IMG/VR virus record: IMGVR_UViG_3300036980_000594
Coordinates: 1 to 28,055 of that record
DNA length: 28,055 nt
DNA from: a virus
Direction: 5' to 3' (one strand)
The notes beneath the pieces are model-generated. The model worked only from the letters and a program-made list of their open reading frames with translations, did not search any database and was not told the origin of the DNA. A program made the position numbers and the translations under genes. Positions 5,185 through 13,286 of the stretch are shown piece by piece (the first letter of the stretch is position 1; every line of letters begins with the position of its first letter).

Positions 5185-5488
5185 CCCCCTTGGTTTTTCT
5201 TGGTTTTGGCAATGGATCGTTTTTGGTGTCCTGAGAGTAAGCCAGCACGTCAGTAGACACCGCCTTAACTGGTTCCGCCTTCTTCAGCGGCTGCGGCTTA
5301 ATTGTTTCAACTGCTTTCGGTCGGTCAATGCGCGGTACTTCCCGGCCTATGCGTAGCGACGCGGTTTCCAATGCGCTCTTGCACCTAAGCCACATCCGGC
5401 GATTATGGTCAGTTGTGCCTAGTAACTCAATCACGTCGGAAAGGAGCGCTGTTATTTTGTCGGCAATTTGGTTTTCTTTTTCGGTCAT
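5162..5488 (-). CDS. Hypothetical protein between large terminase and chaperone-like gene
   Basis: I chose the ATG at 5488 because it overlaps the terminase stop as ATGA; a longer start at 5536 would overlap the terminase gene by 52 bp. The 108-residue protein begins MTEKENQIADKITALL, with a helical N-terminal part (about residues 1-45). A Pro/Lys-rich, probably disordered middle follows (P-Q-P-L-K-K-A-E-P-V-K), then an acidic tail with D-D-S-F-F-A-E. No domain was recognised. It sits where some phages encode small packaging or head-tail accessory proteins. Confidence 0.65.
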   Translation of the reverse strand: MTEKENQIADKITALLSDVIELLGTTDHNRRMWLRCKSALETASLRIGREVPRIDRPKAVETIKPQPLKKAEPVKAVSTDVLAYSQDTKNDPLPKPRKTKGDDSFFAE

Positions 5489-6726
5489 TTTGAATATGCT
5501 AAAACGGTTGAACCTTCGATTAATCGGGTAGCGCAATATCTGGCCGCGTCAAGGGCGTGGTCATGCGCCGCTACTGGTATGCTTGCTTTCTTATCGTTCC
5601 AAACGTAGTTTCTCAATTCGTGTTTTAGGTTGTAGCTTTCCGGAGTTACGACAAACTGAAACTTACTAAGCTCCCGTATCCCCTCCTTAATGCTATCCTT
5701 CCCCTTGCTTGCGTTCTGCATGTTCAACCCGTTACGGGCAAACATTTTAATTAGGCGCGGCTCGCTGGTATCGTTCACCACTAGCGCGTTTGGCTCTACC
5801 CGGTCAAGCATTATCGCCAGTGCTGCCTCATCGCTCAGGTTCGTCTTGTAAATTTCTTCGTGCATGTAAATTTGCATTGTCTTTGTATCTACCGCTACCT
5901 TTACCAGTGCCAACGGGTCAGGGAAGAAGCCCAGGTCAAGGCCATAACCGAATGGTAACGATTCATCAAACGATCCCTCTACCCAGTTGGGATAAATTAC
6001 GCCCTCTTTTCTGGTCAGCCATTGGCCTAAGTAGCGGTGCGCGTATGCTGCTGGGTTATCTCGTTTGAGGTTTTCTATCTTGGTTATATAGTCCTCATTC
6101 AAATGCCCTGCGTTATCAAACCACGTTGTATGGATGTGGGTAATGTCTGGGTGCGTGCTTATCGGTATTTGATGCCCATCAATTATTTCCATCCGGTGTG
6201 ACTTTTCAAACCATCGTTCCCAAATCCAGTGTTCAGTATCTTGTGGGTTCATTATCAAAACAACAATGTTAGGCAGGTCTTTTTGCCTTATGCTGTCGTC
6301 TATGATAATGAAATCCTTTTCACTTACAAATTCCTCAGCTTCATCGACTACAAAAACGTTCAGGCCGGGTATTGATTTAAGCCTAGCCGTTTCCGTTCCA
6401 CTTGCTGCCTTGATACCGGAGAAGATAATACTGCTCCCCGTGTCGCGGCATTCAACCAAACCGCTTGTTACCCGGCACCGATCAGCAACGCCAATCAAAT
6501 GCAGCTTTTCGGTAAACTCTGGTATGATTGAAATTTCGGCGCTCTTTAGCGTCCATCTAGTAAACAGCACCTTCCAATTCTTGAAGGTCGTTATGTTCTT
6601 ACATAGCCATTCGGAAACGGCGAACGACTTTTGAGAACCCCTACCCCCCGTCAGCAGGTAGTACCTCGTTCTCCTGTCTTTCAGGGGAAAGTACTTTCTT
6701 GAGATTTCCAAATTCATCATAAGCAA
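5485..6726 (-). CDS. terL: Terminase large subunit
   Basis: This 413-residue protein is the packaging motor, combining ATPase and nuclease. A Walker-A-like G-G-R-G-S-Q-K-S-F is at residues 27-35, Walker B with catalytic acid N-V-F-V-V-D-E-A-E-E at 123-132, and the coupling motif M-N-P at 159-161. The RuvC-like nuclease acids are D264 (G-L-D-L-G-F), D319 (N-D-T-S-E-P) and D389/D393 (H-D-H-A-L-D-A-A-R-Y). Length and motif spacing fit the Terminase_3/PBSX-like family. Its 5' end overlaps the small subunit by 86 bp; several Met codons (1, 3, 4) lie in the overlap, so the exact start is uncertain by a few residues. The next gene starts at its TGA. Confidence 0.95.
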   Translation of the reverse strand: MLMMNLEISRKYFPLKDRRTRYYLLTGGRGSQKSFAVSEWLCKNITTFKNWKVLFTRWTLKSAEISIIPEFTEKLHLIGVADRCRVTSGLVECRDTGSSIIFSGIKAASGTETARLKSIPGLNVFVVDEAEEFVSEKDFIIIDDSIRQKDLPNIVVLIMNPQDTEHWIWERWFEKSHRMEIIDGHQIPISTHPDITHIHTTWFDNAGHLNEDYITKIENLKRDNPAAYAHRYLGQWLTRKEGVIYPNWVEGSFDESLPFGYGLDLGFFPDPLALVKVAVDTKTMQIYMHEEIYKTNLSDEAALAIMLDRVEPNALVVNDTSEPRLIKMFARNGLNMQNASKGKDSIKEGIRELSKFQFVVTPESYNLKHELRNYVWNDKKASIPVAAHDHALDAARYCATRLIEGSTVLAYSK

Positions 6727-7042
6727 ATCCGTCTGTGTAGATTGTCTTTCCGGTTATCGTTTCGCCATTGCTCACTATGTCAATATGTTCCTTTGGCTTC
6801 CCATAAGCCCGGTTAAGCAGCATCTCAGCCGCTTTTAAGTCGCCCTTTATTGCCTTACTGCGGATTACCTTTAGAATCGCCTCTGCTGCGCTCATTCCAT
6901 TCTGCTCGTCTGCTAGGACTTCGGCAATCAGTAGGTCGAGGGCGGGTAGTTTCTTCGGGCGACCTTTGGGGTTTAATACCTCGCCTTTCTTTATCCGCTT
7001 TAGCGTTCCCCCATTCCTTCCCGGCATTGTGTCTTTTTCCAT
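6641..7042 (-). CDS. terS: Terminase small subunit-like protein
   Basis: This 133-residue basic protein lies directly upstream of, and overlaps, the large terminase. The N terminus has G-E-V-L-N-P-K-G-R-P-K-K near residues 20-31, a motif common in small DUF5681-type proteins upstream of phage terminases. A helical body follows (A-L-D-L-L-I-A-E-V-L, then K-V-I-R-S-K-A-I-K-G-D-L-K-A-A-E-M-L-L) that fits DNA binding and oligomer formation, and the C terminus is flexible. Function as the DNA-recognition part of the terminase is inferred from position and the N-P-K-G-R-P motif. Confidence 0.75.
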   Translation of the reverse strand: MEKDTMPGRNGGTLKRIKKGEVLNPKGRPKKLPALDLLIAEVLADEQNGMSAAEAILKVIRSKAIKGDLKAAEMLLNRAYGKPKEHIDIVSNGETITGKTIYTDGFAYDEFGNLKKVLSPERQENEVLPADGG

Positions 7043-7053
7043 TTACGTATTTT

Positions 7054-8535
7054 TTACGTGTTTACCGTTTCCAATAATCCGTCGTATTCGTCTAGCACGT
7101 CATCCAGTGAATGTGGAGCGTATGGGTCATAAGAAACAAAACGCTTTGTAGTTGTGTCCCATCGTTTAGAAAGGTTATCCAAAGTCTTACGCCGTATCTT
7201 TCGGATTACTTCGTTTGGTATGTAACTTTCCAAAAACCAAGTAGGTAATTTTTCTTCCACGCCGTATTCTCTTGTCAAGTCCCCAATATCGTAATGGTCT
7301 AAAATATACTTGTATTGCTCCCCCCTGCGTAAGGCTCGGAATTTCGAGTTGAACGTAAAGAGGTTGAAAATCTTTTCCGAGTTCTTAGCCCCGCCCCTTA
7401 AAACGCAAATATCAGAAAGCAACGAGGCTTCTGATTCTAAAGGGGAACGCTGGAAAAACTTAACCGTCCTCCCTTCGTTCCATGTTACCGAAAATTCCAT
7501 ATCATATAGAACCTTTATAGCTTTCTCCGAAAACTCGTTTTTGTAAAATAGATTTACAGCAGCATAAGCAGCAGGAGTAATAGGGGATGGCCTGAACGGG
7601 GTATTAGTCATCTTGATACGCATTTTCTTACCGTCAAAGTCAACCCGGTTTAAGCGCTCTACCATATCTAACCACAATTCCCAATCTTCCTGCGTTGCAC
7701 CCTCCAATCCAATGATGTTGTAAAGATTTACGTCTATACCTTTGTTTTTGGTTTTCTTGAGCACATCTATAAAGAATTGCTCTATCTGCTCGTTAGGCAA
7801 TCGCCTATTGTGTAAATACCTGCTTCGCTCTGATATTCCATCTAGCGCGGTTATAATGTCCGGCTTAGACCCATCATACAAGCAAGAATCCATCCATTCT
7901 AATTCCATGCTTTTGCCCGTGGAAAACTCCATGACAAAATCTTTCCGGCCTTCGTGCTTTCGGGCATAAGTGTAATGGCAATAAGTGCATTTGTTTGGGC
8001 ATCCATGCATTTCTTCTTTAAGCGAAAACTTTTTCCCGCCTATTTGCATATCCTCAATTACCAACATTTTTTCAGTCTGCCTAAAAATAATTGAGTGTAA
8101 TCCTTGTTCCTTGATGCGCATTAAGGAATCTGATGGGTAGTCGAACCAAGATTTTACTATCTTCCCAAATTCGCCCTCTGATCTTCCGAAATAAGCAAAG
8201 TCTAACCATTCTTGGACGTGGTAGGGGTTTTGCATTCCAAATCCGCCGCCACAAACCAAAAATTTACGATTTTCTTTTCTCCATTCTGGAATTTTATAGA
8301 CCGCCTTAGCAAAGGCAATCATATCATAATTAGAGGTGAAAGACACTAAAATTAAATCGTATTTGTACGCCGTCTCTGGCACACAATGCTCAACTTCTAC
8401 ACCGGTTTCCCCTTGCACATCCATAGCCACGATGATAGCCCCACCATTGCCAAGCCCCAAAAAGCTACTATTCTTGTGTCGCTTTGCACCTGCATTTTCC
8501 CCATCGAATATTAAAAAGGCTATCTTCTTGTCCAT
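7054..8535 (-). CDS. Radical SAM protein with B12-binding-like N-terminal domain
   Basis: This 493-residue protein contains C179-x3-C183-x2-C186 (H-G-C-P-N-K-C-T-Y-C-H), the 4Fe-4S site of radical SAM enzymes. The first 130 residues form a Rossmann-like region: alternating strands, D-L-I-L-V-S-F-T-S-N, F-L-V-C-G-G-G-F-G, and F-G-R-S-E-G-E-F near 116-123. This pattern is typical of the cobalamin-binding-like domain in many radical SAM proteins, but the D-x-H-x-x-G cobalamin ligand motif is not evident. N-I-I-G-L-E-G-A-T-Q-E-D near 263-275 fits a later core strand. The gene lies 11 bp from the small terminase start and 4 bp after the ParB-like gene. Its substrate cannot be read from the sequence; DNA, protein or glycan modification are all possible. 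Confidence 0.88.
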   Translation of the reverse strand: MDKKIAFLIFDGENAGAKRHKNSSFLGLGNGGAIIVAMDVQGETGVEVEHCVPETAYKYDLILVSFTSNYDMIAFAKAVYKIPEWRKENRKFLVCGGGFGMQNPYHVQEWLDFAYFGRSEGEFGKIVKSWFDYPSDSLMRIKEQGLHSIIFRQTEKMLVIEDMQIGGKKFSLKEEMHGCPNKCTYCHYTYARKHEGRKDFVMEFSTGKSMELEWMDSCLYDGSKPDIITALDGISERSRYLHNRRLPNEQIEQFFIDVLKKTKNKGIDVNLYNIIGLEGATQEDWELWLDMVERLNRVDFDGKKMRIKMTNTPFRPSPITPAAYAAVNLFYKNEFSEKAIKVLYDMEFSVTWNEGRTVKFFQRSPLESEASLLSDICVLRGGAKNSEKIFNLFTFNSKFRALRRGEQYKYILDHYDIGDLTREYGVEEKLPTWFLESYIPNEVIRKIRRKTLDNLSKRWDTTTKRFVSYDPYAPHSLDDVLDEYDGLLETVNT

Positions 8536-8539
8536 CAGT

Positions 8540-9001
8540 TTATTTTAAAAAGGAAAACCCGCACTTTGGGCAATCTATTTCCTCTTTCTTTTTACTTCCT
8601 TCCGCGCCGGGCATGTCGTCATCTATTCCGCCAAAATCCATTTCTTGCGGAATATGCAACCCCCACGCACTTAAATCGTCTGCATCCCAATTATTCGCCA
8701 ATTCATCCCAATCCCATTCTCCAAAGCCAACATTATCCGCAATTACAAACCGCTGCTTTTCTTCGGGGGTTAGTTCGTTGGCTCGCTTCACCCAATTATC
8801 TGGAATTTCCTTGTAGTTTAGTTCTTGCAATGCCTTTAGGCGCATGTTCCCGCCTAGTACAAACCCATTCTCGTCCACCACGATAGGCCGTAACTCCATC
8901 ATCTTTGGGAACTCCGAAATACTTTGCTTTAGCTTGGCAAATTTTTCATCCCTTAGTATCCGGGGGTTATCTGGATTGGCTTTAATTTCCTTTAGCTTCA
9001 T
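8540..9001 (-). CDS. ParB-like N-terminal domain protein with C-terminal zinc knuckle
   Basis: This 153-residue protein starts MKLKEIKANPDNPRIL, the usual opening of the ParB/Srx-like fold, and has G-G-N-M-R at residues 50-54, corresponding to the conserved G-[GH]-x-R signature. The following V-G-F-G-E-W-D-W-D-E-L (91-101) is typical of phage ParB-like proteins that sit beside DNA-modifying enzymes. The C terminus carries C144-x2-C147 (C-P-K-C-G-F). It is too short to be a chromosome-partition ParB. ParB-fold proteins can be CTP-dependent or nuclease-like; neither activity is shown here. It may act with the neighbouring radical SAM enzyme. Confidence 0.85.
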   Translation of the reverse strand: MKLKEIKANPDNPRILRDEKFAKLKQSISEFPKMMELRPIVVDENGFVLGGNMRLKALQELNYKEIPDNWVKRANELTPEEKQRFVIADNVGFGEWDWDELANNWDADDLSAWGLHIPQEMDFGGIDDDMPGAEGSKKKEEIDCPKCGFSFLK

Positions 9002-9184: not shown

Positions 9185-9817
9185 TTAATTAGGCACCTGA
9201 AACACCGTCAACCCGCACCGGGGCACCACGGTAGTCCACAAATCAATTCGCTGCCAGTTCGTGTTTCGTTTGATCCACTCAATCGTTTCCTTTTCATCCG
9301 GGCAATGCGCCCAGGCTTGTAGATCTTCGTCCCACTTCCCGCCGTAATTGTCCAGGACCCATTGCTTGTCCTTGTCGATGTCTGCTTGCTTCCAATGGCC
9401 TGTATCGTGCAAGATAAACAGTGCGCCGGAACCAAGGACATTTACTAGCCCTTTGACCACTTCGATGTTGTCCTTTAGCTTGTGACTTGCATCAACAAAC
9501 ACAAGATCGGGTATTCCACGCACAAAATCAATAGGCGCGGTCATATTTTGTTCAAAGCACAACATTCCGTTTGTACCTTGCCCGCGTTGTAGTTCCTTTA
9601 CTTCGTCGCTTATTGTCGAGTCCACGGCATAGATGAAGGGTACACCAGCATTGATCCAGACGCGCAAACTTTGGCCGATTAAGCAGCCGATTTCGAGGAC
9701 TACCTGGGGTTTGACCATATGGCATAGGCCGTACAAGAAAAGTGCCTCGTCGGACTGAATAGGCCCCAACGTCGTTTCGTTAAACGGGTGCAGGAAACTT
9801 GTATTGTACTGGCTCAT
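9185..9817 (-). CDS. Class I SAM-dependent methyltransferase
   Basis: I chose the ATG at 9817 (MSQYNTSFLH) because it overlaps the glycosyltransferase stop as ATGA; an ATG at 9826 is also possible. In the 210-residue protein, motif I is L-E-I-G-C-L-I-G-Q-S at 41-50, the acidic end of strand 2 is A-V-D-S at 64-67, and L-V-F-V-D-A-S-H at 105-112 plus H-D-T at 137-139 match the Methyltransf_24/TylF-like group. Those enzymes often methylate sugar hydroxyls in glycan pathways. Placement between a glycosyltransferase and SAM-related genes supports a glycan O-methylation role, but the substrate is inferred. Confidence 0.82.
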   Translation of the reverse strand: MSQYNTSFLHPFNETTLGPIQSDEALFLYGLCHMVKPQVVLEIGCLIGQSLRVWINAGVPFIYAVDSTISDEVKELQRGQGTNGMLCFEQNMTAPIDFVRGIPDLVFVDASHKLKDNIEVVKGLVNVLGSGALFILHDTGHWKQADIDKDKQWVLDNYGGKWDEDLQAWAHCPDEKETIEWIKRNTNWQRIDLWTTVVPRCGLTVFQVPN

Positions 9818-10743
9818 GGCTTCCATCGGTTTGGGTTTAAGTAATCCGGTTTGCTTTCAATTGTTGTATACTGGTCGTGGTTTGCTTTCATATCCTCAAC
9901 CCATACTTCCGCAACGCGTGGGGTAAGCACATTGTACTTTGGATCATCGTGGTTTTCGTGTAGTACCCAAGTATCTACCTCGTTTGGAGTTGCCGTTGTA
10001 AATCCAAAAGTGTACCGCTGCTTCATAAATGCCATGTCCACCGTCCCCCAGTTGCTACTTTCTGGCATCCCTTTAAACCGCTTCCAAGTATCAGTTGTTG
10101 CGCTGCAAAATATCCACGAATCAAAAGGCCGATTATCTGCCTCCAAGTTATTCGGATGAAAATCGTGGTTTGAATCGCCGTAATCGTAAAAATCTGGACA
10201 AATAGCCTTAAACCGCTGAATTGACCAATCCGCCGTACCTCCTTTGCTGCGGTCATCCATGAGCAAGAAAAACCAATCTTCATATCTTAATTGCAATTCA
10301 ACTGGCAGATAATACCCCCTAAACATCACAAAGTCGATCCCCTCCTGTGCAGCGTTGATTGCATCGAACGTGTAAATACCCGGTACAATTTCAGGGTGTG
10401 TAGGGATAACCCGTTCAGCCCCTAGCGCATGGATTGCAAAGCTTATGCCCATGTTCAGGAACGCCGCACTGTCACGCCACACCCCCGGCTGTTTGTCGGT
10501 GAGCTTGAAGTAAAAAACATCGATGTTATTGGAATATATTTTGCACACCTGCAAAGTGTCGTCTGTGCTACCGTCGTCAAGAACCACCACGCAATCCTCT
10601 GTGCCCATGCTTTCCTGGTAAGCGTACATTGATTGCCGCATCAAGTGGCCTCGGTTGTACGTCCCGAAAACTACGACGTTGCGGTAGGGTTTATGCCAAT
10701 GCTTTTTGCCATTGTTCCAAAGCGGATCTATAAAGTACAACAT
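9814..10743 (-). CDS. GT-A family 2-like glycosyltransferase
   Basis: This 309-residue protein has the GT2 nucleotide-binding start (V-V-V-F-G-T-Y-N-R-G, residues 23-32) and V-V-V-L-D-D-G-S-T-D-D at 52-62, a typical first acidic motif. Later acidic pairs and a D-D-R-S segment could serve as metal or acceptor site residues, but I cannot fix a D-x-D with confidence. No membrane segments are evident, so it is probably cytoplasmic. Its 5' end overlaps the mutase-like gene by 53 bp; no later Met would preserve the strand holding the Y-N-R motif, so the long overlap is probably real. Confidence 0.85.
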   Translation of the reverse strand: MLYFIDPLWNNGKKHWHKPYRNVVVFGTYNRGHLMRQSMYAYQESMGTEDCVVVLDDGSTDDTLQVCKIYSNNIDVFYFKLTDKQPGVWRDSAAFLNMGISFAIHALGAERVIPTHPEIVPGIYTFDAINAAQEGIDFVMFRGYYLPVELQLRYEDWFFLLMDDRSKGGTADWSIQRFKAICPDFYDYGDSNHDFHPNNLEADNRPFDSWIFCSATTDTWKRFKGMPESSNWGTVDMAFMKQRYTFGFTTATPNEVDTWVLHENHDDPKYNVLTPRVAEVWVEDMKANHDQYTTIESKPDYLNPNRWKP

Positions 10744-11590
10744 AGGGATGTTGATTATTTGGGTCGTGAAATTGGTTATCGAAGTCCTCGTTAAGCTCCA
10801 TAAAGATAGCTTCTTTTTTCAAGTTGGCAAACACATTGCTTGCCCGGCTGTGGTGTATAGTAGCGTACCCAGTCACGGCTGCGTAGCCTTGCGTGTCCAT
10901 CCAGCGTTTCAATACCACGCCGCTCCAAATATCAGCAAAGCGGTCGCCAACTGGTAGGTCAAACTCTGCAAGTCGTTTGCCCATCGGAGCTTGGTACACA
11001 TACGGCATTAGTTCACGTCGGAAAGCAAAATTCATGGCGCATAACGGAAACAGTGCGCCCGTTGGGATGCTGGTTTTGTTAAACGCAATGTCTTTCACGT
11101 CGGGGTTAAGGAACTGCGTAGGTGCGTCGAAATCAGGAACCCCGTTCCAAACCCCGTGCGACAACATTACAGGCCATTTTTCGCCACCCACAGGAATGCC
11201 CCGAACCCTCCAATCTTGCGCCGTTGACATCCATGTTGGGGAGACGGATATTGAAAGCGCGTTGATGTGACCCTGTATTGGGTCATTGACGGGGTAAACG
11301 TCGTCATCCAAAGAGATAATAATATCCGCGCCCCACTCATGCGCAAAAAGAAACCCAGCATTTCTACAACAATCCGACTTATTGAACAACCAGTTTTGGC
11401 TCTTGTTAGCTATAAAAGTTTGCCCTGTGTCATCAGGTAAGCTAAACTTTACGACAGGCCATTCCCCCGAATCATCAACTTTAAAAAGCCCTATTTGATG
11501 TTTTAAGAAAAGCGGTTTCCACGCCTCAAAAAACAATTTCCAGCTTTCCGGGCGTATGGTTGGTACAACGACTGCGATTTTTTGGCTCAT
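10691..11590 (-). CDS. UDP-arabinopyranose mutase / reversibly glycosylated polypeptide-like (GT75)
   Basis: This 299-residue protein matches, segment by segment, what I recall of plant RGP/UAM proteins. It opens A-V-V-V-P-T-I-R-P, has the metal-binding D-D-D at 95-97 (I-S-L-D-D-D-V-Y-P), R-G-I-P at 130-133, S-H-G-V-W-N-G-V-P-D-F-D-A-P-T-Q at 144-159, G-A-L-F-P-L-C-A-M-N-F-A-F at 178-190, D-I-W-S-G at 220-224, and H-S-R-A-S-N-x-F-x-N-L-K-K-E at 247-260. In plants these proteins interconvert UDP-arabinopyranose and UDP-arabinofuranose and self-glycosylate on an Arg, possibly R130 here. It overlaps the GT-B gene by the ATGA at 11587-11590. A cytoplasmic sugar-nucleotide mutase or related transferase is the best call; activity is untested. 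Confidence 0.82.
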   Translation of the reverse strand: MSQKIAVVVPTIRPESWKLFFEAWKPLFLKHQIGLFKVDDSGEWPVVKFSLPDDTGQTFIANKSQNWLFNKSDCCRNAGFLFAHEWGADIIISLDDDVYPVNDPIQGHINALSISVSPTWMSTAQDWRVRGIPVGGEKWPVMLSHGVWNGVPDFDAPTQFLNPDVKDIAFNKTSIPTGALFPLCAMNFAFRRELMPYVYQAPMGKRLAEFDLPVGDRFADIWSGVVLKRWMDTQGYAAVTGYATIHHSRASNVFANLKKEAIFMELNEDFDNQFHDPNNQHPYVVLYRSALEQWQKALA

Positions 11591-12636
11591 AACGACTCTA
11601 AAATTTCAACACGTTTTAAATTCAATTTCTCCAAATCTCTGTTTTCAGTTATCCACTGTCTGCCTTCCTCGATTGTTAGGTGATAGTCCGCATCGTCTTT
11701 CAATAGCCCCATGAACTCCTTGATCAATCCGCCTGCACTATCGTAATGACGCACCCCCGGATGATTGAACTCAGCAAACCCAGTCGGCGCATACGGCACA
11801 ATCCCCGCAACCAGCATTTCCATAGCAAAAATATTGCTTTTGGCATGGTTAAACGGATGGTCAACAAGCGGAAAAACACCGTAATCCGCTCCTGTATTGC
11901 GCAACTCCTCGAAGTAATGGAAGACAAACGGCCGCCAATCACGGGACAAAATGCCTGGGTAGTGGGTTTCAACATACGCTTTTAAGATCCCAATCCAACC
12001 AATGTTGGTGGTTTCATTCAATACCGCCCACTTCCAGAAAGAGTCAACTGTTTTTAGATCCTCCATGTGAGTCATTGATCCCCGCCAAAAGATTTTGATA
12101 AGCGCATCCGGGTTCATTTGCCCGTCTTTTTGCGATGGCGCATACCGGGACCTAACTGCTGGGTTAGTTTGTATTTGATTCGTAAAGGGCGTGGTTTTTA
12201 GGTCTATCCCGTTTGGAATGACTGTTATGCTCTTGTGCCATTGCCTGAACGCATCCTCCAGTACAGGCGTAGATACGATCACGTGGTCCGCATACTCGAA
12301 AGAATCCACAATGGTTTTTCTAACATCCTCCCGGTTGAAATGTGAGCTTGCCGGGTTAGTTAATGGCACATTGGTAAGTAAATCATCGTGGTCAAAAATG
12401 ATCTTGCCGTCACGGCGCATACGCTTGTAATCTCGGATAATCCCTAACATGGAATCACCATTAGGCCGGGAAAAAAACATCACATCACATTGGAAATAAT
12501 CTTCCCATTTGCTGTCGGGGCGAATGATTACAATCCTGTATTTAGGGTGTGCTTTTGAAAGCCGGGTAAACGCACCTACGGTTCGATAAAAATCTGTCGC
12601 AGGTGATTCGTTGTTTATTAGGATTCCTATTGTCAT
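11587..12636 (-). CDS. GT-B-like (family 4-like) glycosyltransferase
   Basis: This 349-residue protein starts with a Rossmann-type strand (MTIGILINNESPATDFYR). Later it has Y-A-D-H-V-I-V-S-T-P-V-L followed by I-T-V-I-P-N-G-I-D (about residues 113-146), the linker seen between the two domains of GT4-type enzymes. The C-terminal half carries A-K-S-N-I-F-A-M-E-M-L-V-A-G, corresponding to the donor-binding K-x8-E-x-x-A/G pattern. It probably uses a nucleotide sugar in the cytoplasm. Start and stop overlap neighbours by 4 bp on both sides, so expression is tightly coupled to the mutase-like gene. Confidence 0.82.
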   Translation of the reverse strand: MTIGILINNESPATDFYRTVGAFTRLSKAHPKYRIVIIRPDSKWEDYFQCDVMFFSRPNGDSMLGIIRDYKRMRRDGKIIFDHDDLLTNVPLTNPASSHFNREDVRKTIVDSFEYADHVIVSTPVLEDAFRQWHKSITVIPNGIDLKTTPFTNQIQTNPAVRSRYAPSQKDGQMNPDALIKIFWRGSMTHMEDLKTVDSFWKWAVLNETTNIGWIGILKAYVETHYPGILSRDWRPFVFHYFEELRNTGADYGVFPLVDHPFNHAKSNIFAMEMLVAGIVPYAPTGFAEFNHPGVRHYDSAGGLIKEFMGLLKDDADYHLTIEEGRQWITENRDLEKLNLKRVEILESL

Positions 12637-12995: not shown

Positions 12996-13079
12996 TTTCG
13001 CTTTTGGTTTAAAAAAACCGGGCGCACAACCTAGCCTAAATCAGTAGTATGAATGCGAAACGTAAAAAACTCTGCAATT

Positions 13080-13087
13080 CAAAGATA
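13080..13087 (-). promoter_or_regulatory. Candidate -7 element for the leftward operon
   Basis: On the minus strand TATCTTTG matches TAnnTTTG about 85 bp ahead of the 12995 start. No TTG is found at 19-20 bp upstream, so the site is incomplete. It forms the leftward half of the divergent control region. Confidence 0.4.
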
Positions 13088-13126
13088 CGACTATTTTTAT
13101 ATTTTTTATAGTTTTAGGCAAAAAAG

Positions 13127-13157
13127 TTTGCAGGTTTGAAAAATAGGTGTATATTTG
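13127..13157 (+). promoter_or_regulatory. Bacteroidetes-type promoter for the early operon
   Basis: TTTG at 13127-13130 is separated by 19 bp from TATATTTG at 13150-13157 (followed by C), an excellent -33/-7 match. A/T-rich DNA at 13090-13115 could serve as an upstream element. Predicted transcription start is near 13164. Confidence 0.75.
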
Positions 13158-13163
13158 CAGTAC

Positions 13164-13286
13164 GATATAACGCTTAGAGGTGAGAGCCTAACCGTCATAT
13201 TATGAGGATTTAGTAGTTAAACAAAGCCCGGCGCTCTCACAATAGCCGGGCTTTTGTATTTTTAGTCAACTACTAACATCAACGAT
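13164..13286 (+). ncRNA. Structured leader RNA ahead of the initiator gene
   Basis: Between the promoter and the ATG at 13287 lie three sets of complementary segments. GTGAGAGC (13180-13187) matches GCTCTCAC (13233-13240). AGCCCGGC (13225-13232) matches GCCGGGCT (13245-13252). TTAGTAGTT (13210-13218) matches AACTACTAA (13268-13276). The first two interlock in the order a-b-a'-b', as in an H-type pseudoknot with no nucleotide between b and a'. The outer helix ends 10 nt before the start codon. An attenuator or cis-regulatory RNA is likely. I do not recognise it as a named family. Confidence 0.6.
13225..13256 (+). terminator. Terminator-like hairpin inside the leader (attenuator candidate)
   Basis: An 8-bp GC-rich stem (13225-13232 with 13245-13252) is followed by CTTTTGTATTTTT. 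It lies downstream of the promoter but upstream of the first gene, so it would limit read-through into the replication genes. Its 12-nt loop contains the 8-nt segment that can pair upstream. Confidence 0.6.

Follow-up and report, generated by a model that had tools for sequence, protein, structure and literature searches.

A GT75 mutase-like protein in an exchangeable glycosyltransferase and methyltransferase cassette of a phage

Genes of the window

The DNA analyzed here (the window) spans an entire IMG/VR virus record (IMGVR_UViG_3300036980_000594; 28,055 nucleotides), which is classed as linear and is probably a fragment. Its terminase large subunit (TerL) is closest to those of Riemerella phages (42% identity). 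This agrees with a Bacteroidota phage, the origin that an earlier note, made from the sequence alone, had suggested. The features discussed are the following:

5485..6726, minus strand: terminase large subunit, Terminase_3 type (landmark)
6641..7042, minus strand: terminase small subunit-like (landmark)
7054..8535, minus strand: radical SAM protein with CxxxCxxC, in the cassette's transcription direction
8540..9001, minus strand: ParB-N-like protein, whose counterpart directly follows GT4 in relatives without the GT75-GT2-methyltransferase insert
9185..9826, minus strand: class I methyltransferase, candidate sugar O-methyltransferase (weak Methyltransf_24 match, below cut-off)
9814..10743, minus strand: GT2-like glycosyltransferase, overlapping the GT75 gene by 53 bases
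10691..11590, minus strand: GT75 (RGP/UAM/MtdL family) NDP-pyranose mutase-like protein, assigned by profile, fold and residue mapping
11587..12636, minus strand: GT4-like glycosyltransferase of GT-B fold, kept in related phages with and without GT75

Read along the minus strand, the order is a 120-aa gene, GT4, GT75, GT2, methyltransferase, a 65-aa gene, ParB-like, radical SAM, terminase small subunit (terS) and TerL. The first five genes, from the 120-aa gene to the methyltransferase, overlap successively by 4, 4, 53 and 13 bases. The GT4, GT75, GT2 and methyltransferase genes form a tight operon upstream of the terminase. The two glycosyltransferases and the methyltransferase that the earlier note saw beside the GT75 gene are borne out by these GT4-like, GT2-like and methyltransferase-like genes, and the observation extends to a cassette conserved in other phages. 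No clear membrane segment was found in the cassette proteins, and the cassette contains neither a gene for a membrane protein or flippase nor one of GtrA/GtrB type.

The structural model of the GT4 protein matched BshA best (Z = 25.4), with T4 AGT lower (Z = 21.6). As the fold search singled out no DNA glycosyltransferases, the model gives no grounds for assigning GT4 to DNA.

A tblastn search of 50,697 phage records retrieved no match to the radical SAM gene, located between ParB and terS, and its protein weakly matches a B12-binding radical SAM family. The divergent intergenic region at 12996-13286, in which the inverted repeat GCCCGGC...GCCGGGC precedes a T-rich sequence, separates the late operon from the replication genes.

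Family, fold and key residues of the GT75 protein

The GT75 reading frame starts with ATG and encodes 299 aa. The protein matches Pfam RGP (PF03214) with 97.4 bits (E = 1.3e-27; curated cut-off 23.8), the sole Pfam family matched; searches of NCBIfam and PHROG gave no model and no significant match, respectively. Among solved structures searched by sequence, the top matches were the UDP-arabinopyranose mutase chain 8cid (phmmer, E = 1.2e-13) and MtdL (4e-12), and a profile search with the protein reached 3.8e-32. We modelled the structure from an alignment of 25 proteins comprising the window and locus proteins, leaving out locus L005 (mean pLDDT 92.7, pTM 0.91). Based on Foldseek and VIA-align, the closest structures to the model are rice UAM2 (8cid; Z = 27.8, 275 residues aligned) and the full set of MtdL entries (Z = 26.5-27.1, 275-279 residues). 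The next fold below these is GlfT2, with a Z of only 14.7, and no other GT-A family fits better. Because the complete GT75 architecture is matched by the model, core and C-terminal helix regions included, the protein is more than a GT-A member. Profile, fold and residue mapping agree, and membership in GT75 is secure. This family had been named in the earlier note from a series of motifs, all of which are present (D95-D97, R130-G-I-P, S144-H-G-V-W...D155-A-P-T-Q, G178-A-L-F-P-L-C-A-M-N and H247-S-R-A-S-N...N-L-K-K-E).

A structural study of MtdL names the key GT75 residues (PMC9937993), and we checked the numbering of the MtdL chain against S86, D87, R90, D109-111, R159 and D195 of that study. 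By alignment, D95-97 of the window protein correspond to D109-111 of MtdL, R130 to R159, D153 to D195, R217 to R257, D220 to D260, H247 to H287 and R249 to R289. All of these except R249 are invariant across the 25 aligned sequences. The mapping makes D95-D97 the DXD motif, D220 the general base and H247 a Mn ligand, and it places R130 at the reversibly glycosylated arginine (R159 in MtdL, R158 in OsUAM1). The triple aspartate and the conserved arginine singled out in the earlier note are borne out by profile, fold and residue mapping. Rice UAM2, which is reported to be inactive (PMC9937993), carries N where the window protein has D97, T in place of R217 and R in place of H247. Since all MtdL catalytic residues are kept, three of which the inactive OsUAM2 has lost, we infer that the window protein is an active enzyme. 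Membership in GT75 is in itself no guarantee of activity, because some plant members are inactive (PMC9937993).

The residues that bear on the substrate give a mixed pattern. Positions 13, 86 and 87 matter in MtdL: GDP binding is weakened by T13P and lost with S86D, and D87S kills the enzyme, as the reverse change S91D kills AtRGP2 (PMC9937993). At the base-reading T13 position the window protein has the plant state, P10, located by its P-T-I motif; this match rests on the published I15/T13 spacing (PMC9937993), the MtdL N-terminus being outside the alignment. S72-D73 follows the MtdL order (S86-D87) and not the plant Asp-Ser state. A185 is neither S nor G and does not match MtdL S228, and M186, which differs from MtdL Q229, is taken as the plant state from the plant motif. 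D73 is conserved in close relatives, whose residue 72 is S, T or N; L014 and L016 are the exceptions, with C-A at this pair. The plant order D-S appears in a jumbo-phage clade, and C-A or C-G in most of a marine clade. With plant and MtdL states mixed in this way, we gave up reading base or sugar specificity from the residues. On its sequence the protein fits neither characterized substrate class, that is, neither the plant UDP-sugar nor the MtdL GDP-sugar enzymes. The arabinofuranose product proposed in the earlier note is accordingly not supported, and the characterized bacterial GT75 enzymes use GDP-L-fucose and GDP-L-galactose (PMC9937993).

Those enzymes, MtdL and Hyg20, are pyranose-furanose mutases of actinobacterial antibiotic pathways, and were the only two bacterial members characterized by 2023 (PMC9937993). 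The window protein shares with them the fold (MtdL Z of about 27), the DDD motif, the equivalents of R159, D195, R257, D260 and H287, the S86-D87 order and a bacterial context beside glycosyltransferases. It is 24% identical to MtdL, has Pro, Met and Ala in place of T13, Q229 and S228, and lies in a phage cassette rather than an antibiotic cluster. With the plant UAM/RGP proteins (OsUAM1, AtRGP1-3 and OsUAM2, the 8cid structure) it shares the fold (OsUAM2 Z = 27.8), DDD, the glycosylated arginine, Pro at the T13 position and Met following the S228/G216 position. The plant proteins differ in having D-S at 86-87, where the window has S-D. This is the site at which a D inactivates AtRGP2 (S91D; PMC9937993).

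The cassette and GT75 genes in other phages

Single-sequence scans of viral and genome collections recovered almost no GT75 relatives, and alignment queries were needed. Likewise, a scan with the window GT2 sequence alone found no relatives. The GT2 alignment retrieved five full-length relatives, 5/5 of them together with a GT75. L010 and L015/L148 were already known through their GT75, and the independent count is 3/3 (L145, L146 and L147). L145 and L146 have the order GT4-GT75-GT2-methyltransferase-terS-TerL, with a Terminase_3-type TerL as in the window. In L147 a GT4-like gene, GT75, GT2 and a methyltransferase are followed by an HK97-type TerL, and in L010 so are GT75, GT2 and a methyltransferase; this TerL belongs to a different family from that of the window. 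Identity to the window GT75 protein is 44-53% for those of L010 and L145-L147, and the tree places the window and L010 as sisters (support 98/97; neither the long L007 branch nor the distant position of OsUAM2 was used). The methyltransferases of L010, L145 and L147 match Methyltransf_24 above the cut-off, and that of L145 also weakly matches the sugar O-methyltransferase profiles RMNT_CmcI and TylF.

Relatives found through their TerL are variable at this site. In L062 (TerL 76% and GT4 89% identical), another methyltransferase and another GT2 replace GT75-GT2-methyltransferase. In L063, L065, L068 and L071 the insert is absent and ParB directly follows the GT4 gene, and in L067 a GT2, a PLOD-type glycosyltransferase and a methyltransferase precede GT4. 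The same gene order accompanies terminases of two unrelated kinds, and close relatives either lack it or have other genes in its place. The cassette is therefore mobile, and its site is a slot for exchangeable sugar genes.

Several other genes were noted around this slot. The PLOD-type (lysyl hydroxylase glycosyltransferase) domain protein of L067 (6925-7569) is within the exchangeable region. In L063 an ABC-type ATPase (817-1898) beside a GNAT acetyltransferase occupies the position of the window's radical SAM gene, and could be a Mom-like DNA modification. Upstream of the cassette, L145 (2672-3277), L146 (2613-3167) and L147 (1229-1801) carry a dCTP-deaminase-like gene, recognized only by eye.

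The GT75 alignment scan yielded 48 viral loci. In the close loci L009, L012, L013, L016, L057 and L058 (the last two being contigs filed as bacterial), GT75 lies amid glycosyltransferases, methyltransferases and some NDP-sugar enzymes. The latter include dTDP-glucose-dehydratase-like SDRs (L014 and L016) and nucleotide-sugar dehydrogenase-like proteins (L012 and L058). In L057, L013 and L016, a short distance separates GT75 from the major head protein gene that precedes it.

A distant marine viral clade (support 99/100) shows another arrangement: TAGT is usually directly upstream of GT75, with a ParB-like gene before TAGT. This pairing, upstream of the terminase, is found at about 20 loci among L025-L056, for example at L034:871-1791 and L034:1776-2555. 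The TAGT match reaches 115 bits for PF20691 and 9.7e-74 for the PHROG beta-glucosyl-HMC-alpha-glucosyltransferase, and 18 of 41 records contain a TAGT match above the threshold. In T2/T6, TAGT attaches the second sugar to hydroxymethylcytosine that is already glucosylated (PMC13216743, PMC13390438). A ParB-TAGT-terminase row also occurs in L012, from the window's own clade. In L017 and L024 a thymidylate-synthase-family, CMP/dCMP-hydroxymethylase-like protein is encoded about 6 and 10 kb from GT75 (L142:4574-5572, L143:14187-15311). The closest PDB entries to the L017 copy are CMP 5-hydroxymethylase and T4 dCMP hydroxymethylase, and the best match of the L142 protein is 5jnh (4e-28). Together with GT75 and a GT-B-like gene nearby, these proteins suggest a modified-cytosine pathway.

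Proposed pathway and target

We propose that the window encodes an active GT75 mutase, a GT2 that transfers its product and a methyltransferase that caps it, carried together as a mobile cassette with a virion protein glycan as acceptor; we put the probability of this reading at roughly 0.6. GT75 would bind a host-made NDP-sugar together with Mn2+, which the DDD motif and H247 would coordinate. Attack by R130 on the anomeric carbon would give an arginine-sugar adduct, with D220 as the base; the ring would re-close through O4, and the NDP-furanose would be released. GT2 may then move the furanose onto an acceptor glycan, perhaps one begun by GT4, and the methyltransferase may cap the transferred furanose. 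The GT75 family and fold, the intact catalytic residues and the conservation and exchange of the cassette are observed; mutase activity, GT2 transfer and methyl capping are what we infer. The four-gene cassette moves between phages and stands in line with the late packaging genes, and a glycan on a virion protein is the most likely acceptor. Overall, the probable outcome is a virus decorated with an unusual sugar.

As the target of the window cassette, a virion protein is our first choice, followed by the host surface or DNA. It is ranked first because of the late, packaging-linked position, the lack of a clear membrane segment, the relatives beside head genes and the absence of base-modifying genes. 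Neither the late position nor the neighbouring genes are proof of a virion target. The absence of base-modifying genes covers a thymidylate-synthase-family hydroxymethylase (PF00303), TAGT (PF20691) and a C5 methylase, none of which was found in the window or in L145-L147. Because these records may be fragments, the absence is weak evidence and the ranking has only moderate support. A TET/JBP search gave no signal from any control.

An alternative is that the cassette modifies phage DNA, with GT75 supplying a furanosyl donor and GT4 or GT2 glycosylating a modified base to shield the genome from restriction. The GT75-TAGT loci with their ParB genes, the similar row in L012 and the hydroxymethylase-like proteins of L017 and L024 all favor it, as does the placement of GT4 next to ParB and near the terminase in window relatives. 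Given the TAGT and hydroxymethylase-like associations, a DNA target is conceivable for GT75 in general. For this cassette we consider it unlikely: the three kinds of base-modifying gene were not found in the window or in L145-L147, all possibly fragments, of which the latter carry the same cassette and have no ParB between it and terS, and the GT4 model is nearer to BshA than to T4 AGT. The broader view, in which phage GT75s make NDP-furanoses for DNA furanosylation, with the marine GT75-TAGT pairs as one form and the window cassette as a second, seems to us quite improbable. The parallel that the earlier note drew with arabinosylated DNA of RB69-like phages does not hold, as other genes are involved there. 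There too a phage makes and transfers an unusual sugar, but RB69 and Mosigvirus phages form arabinosyl-cytosine with an isomerase, an epimerase, a kinase, an NTP-transferase and separate arabinosyltransferases, with no mutase named (PMC6024577, PMC13390438). The earlier observation that no hydroxymethylcytosine pathway is visible holds for the window, possibly a fragment, where no cytosine hydroxymethylase-type gene was found.

Genes that alter surface glycans are common in phages, and the cassette could instead change host capsule or lipopolysaccharide, blocking superinfection or changing the receptor. Sets of GT4, GT2 and methyltransferase genes are typical of surface polysaccharide loci, and the glycosyltransferase slot is highly variable among relatives. 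Against this, the cassette includes no membrane protein, flippase or GtrA/GtrB-type gene and sits in a late packaging row, a time at which a surface change would presumably be of little use; this target, too, is improbable in our view. A different kind of alternative concerns the enzyme itself, which may be inactive as a mutase or act as a transferase with the GT75 fold, glycosylating itself or another protein and making no furanose. OsUAM2 and AtRGP5 are without mutase activity, and autoglycosylation can occur without sugar conversion (PMC9937993). We judge this rather unlikely, as the residues tied to inactivity when lost (H287, R257 and the third motif Asp) are all kept in the window protein.

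GT75 enzymes convert pyranose to furanose nucleotide sugars without a flavin. We found no paper on a phage GT75, RGP or UAM in the literature searched, in which coverage of subscription journals was mostly lacking. One phage GT75 already has an annotation: UniProt A0A6J5N5Z7, a fragment from an uncultured Caudovirales phage, is automatically named 'Reversibly glycosylated polypeptide', is 41% identical to the window protein and has the same fold. Two things appear to be new: a conserved cassette of GT4, GT75, GT2 and methyltransferase genes that is exchangeable, and the association of GT75 with TAGT. If the proposed pathway is correct, the recurrent cassette is a new phage way to rare furanosyl decorations, and it offers many new NDP-furanose-making enzymes and a small four-gene system.

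A GT75-like protein was also observed in Synechococcus phage S-T4 (L004:7785-8690). It is annotated as a membrane protein and groups with MtdL (99/96), and its gene lies amid heptose, epimerase and fucosyltransferase genes.
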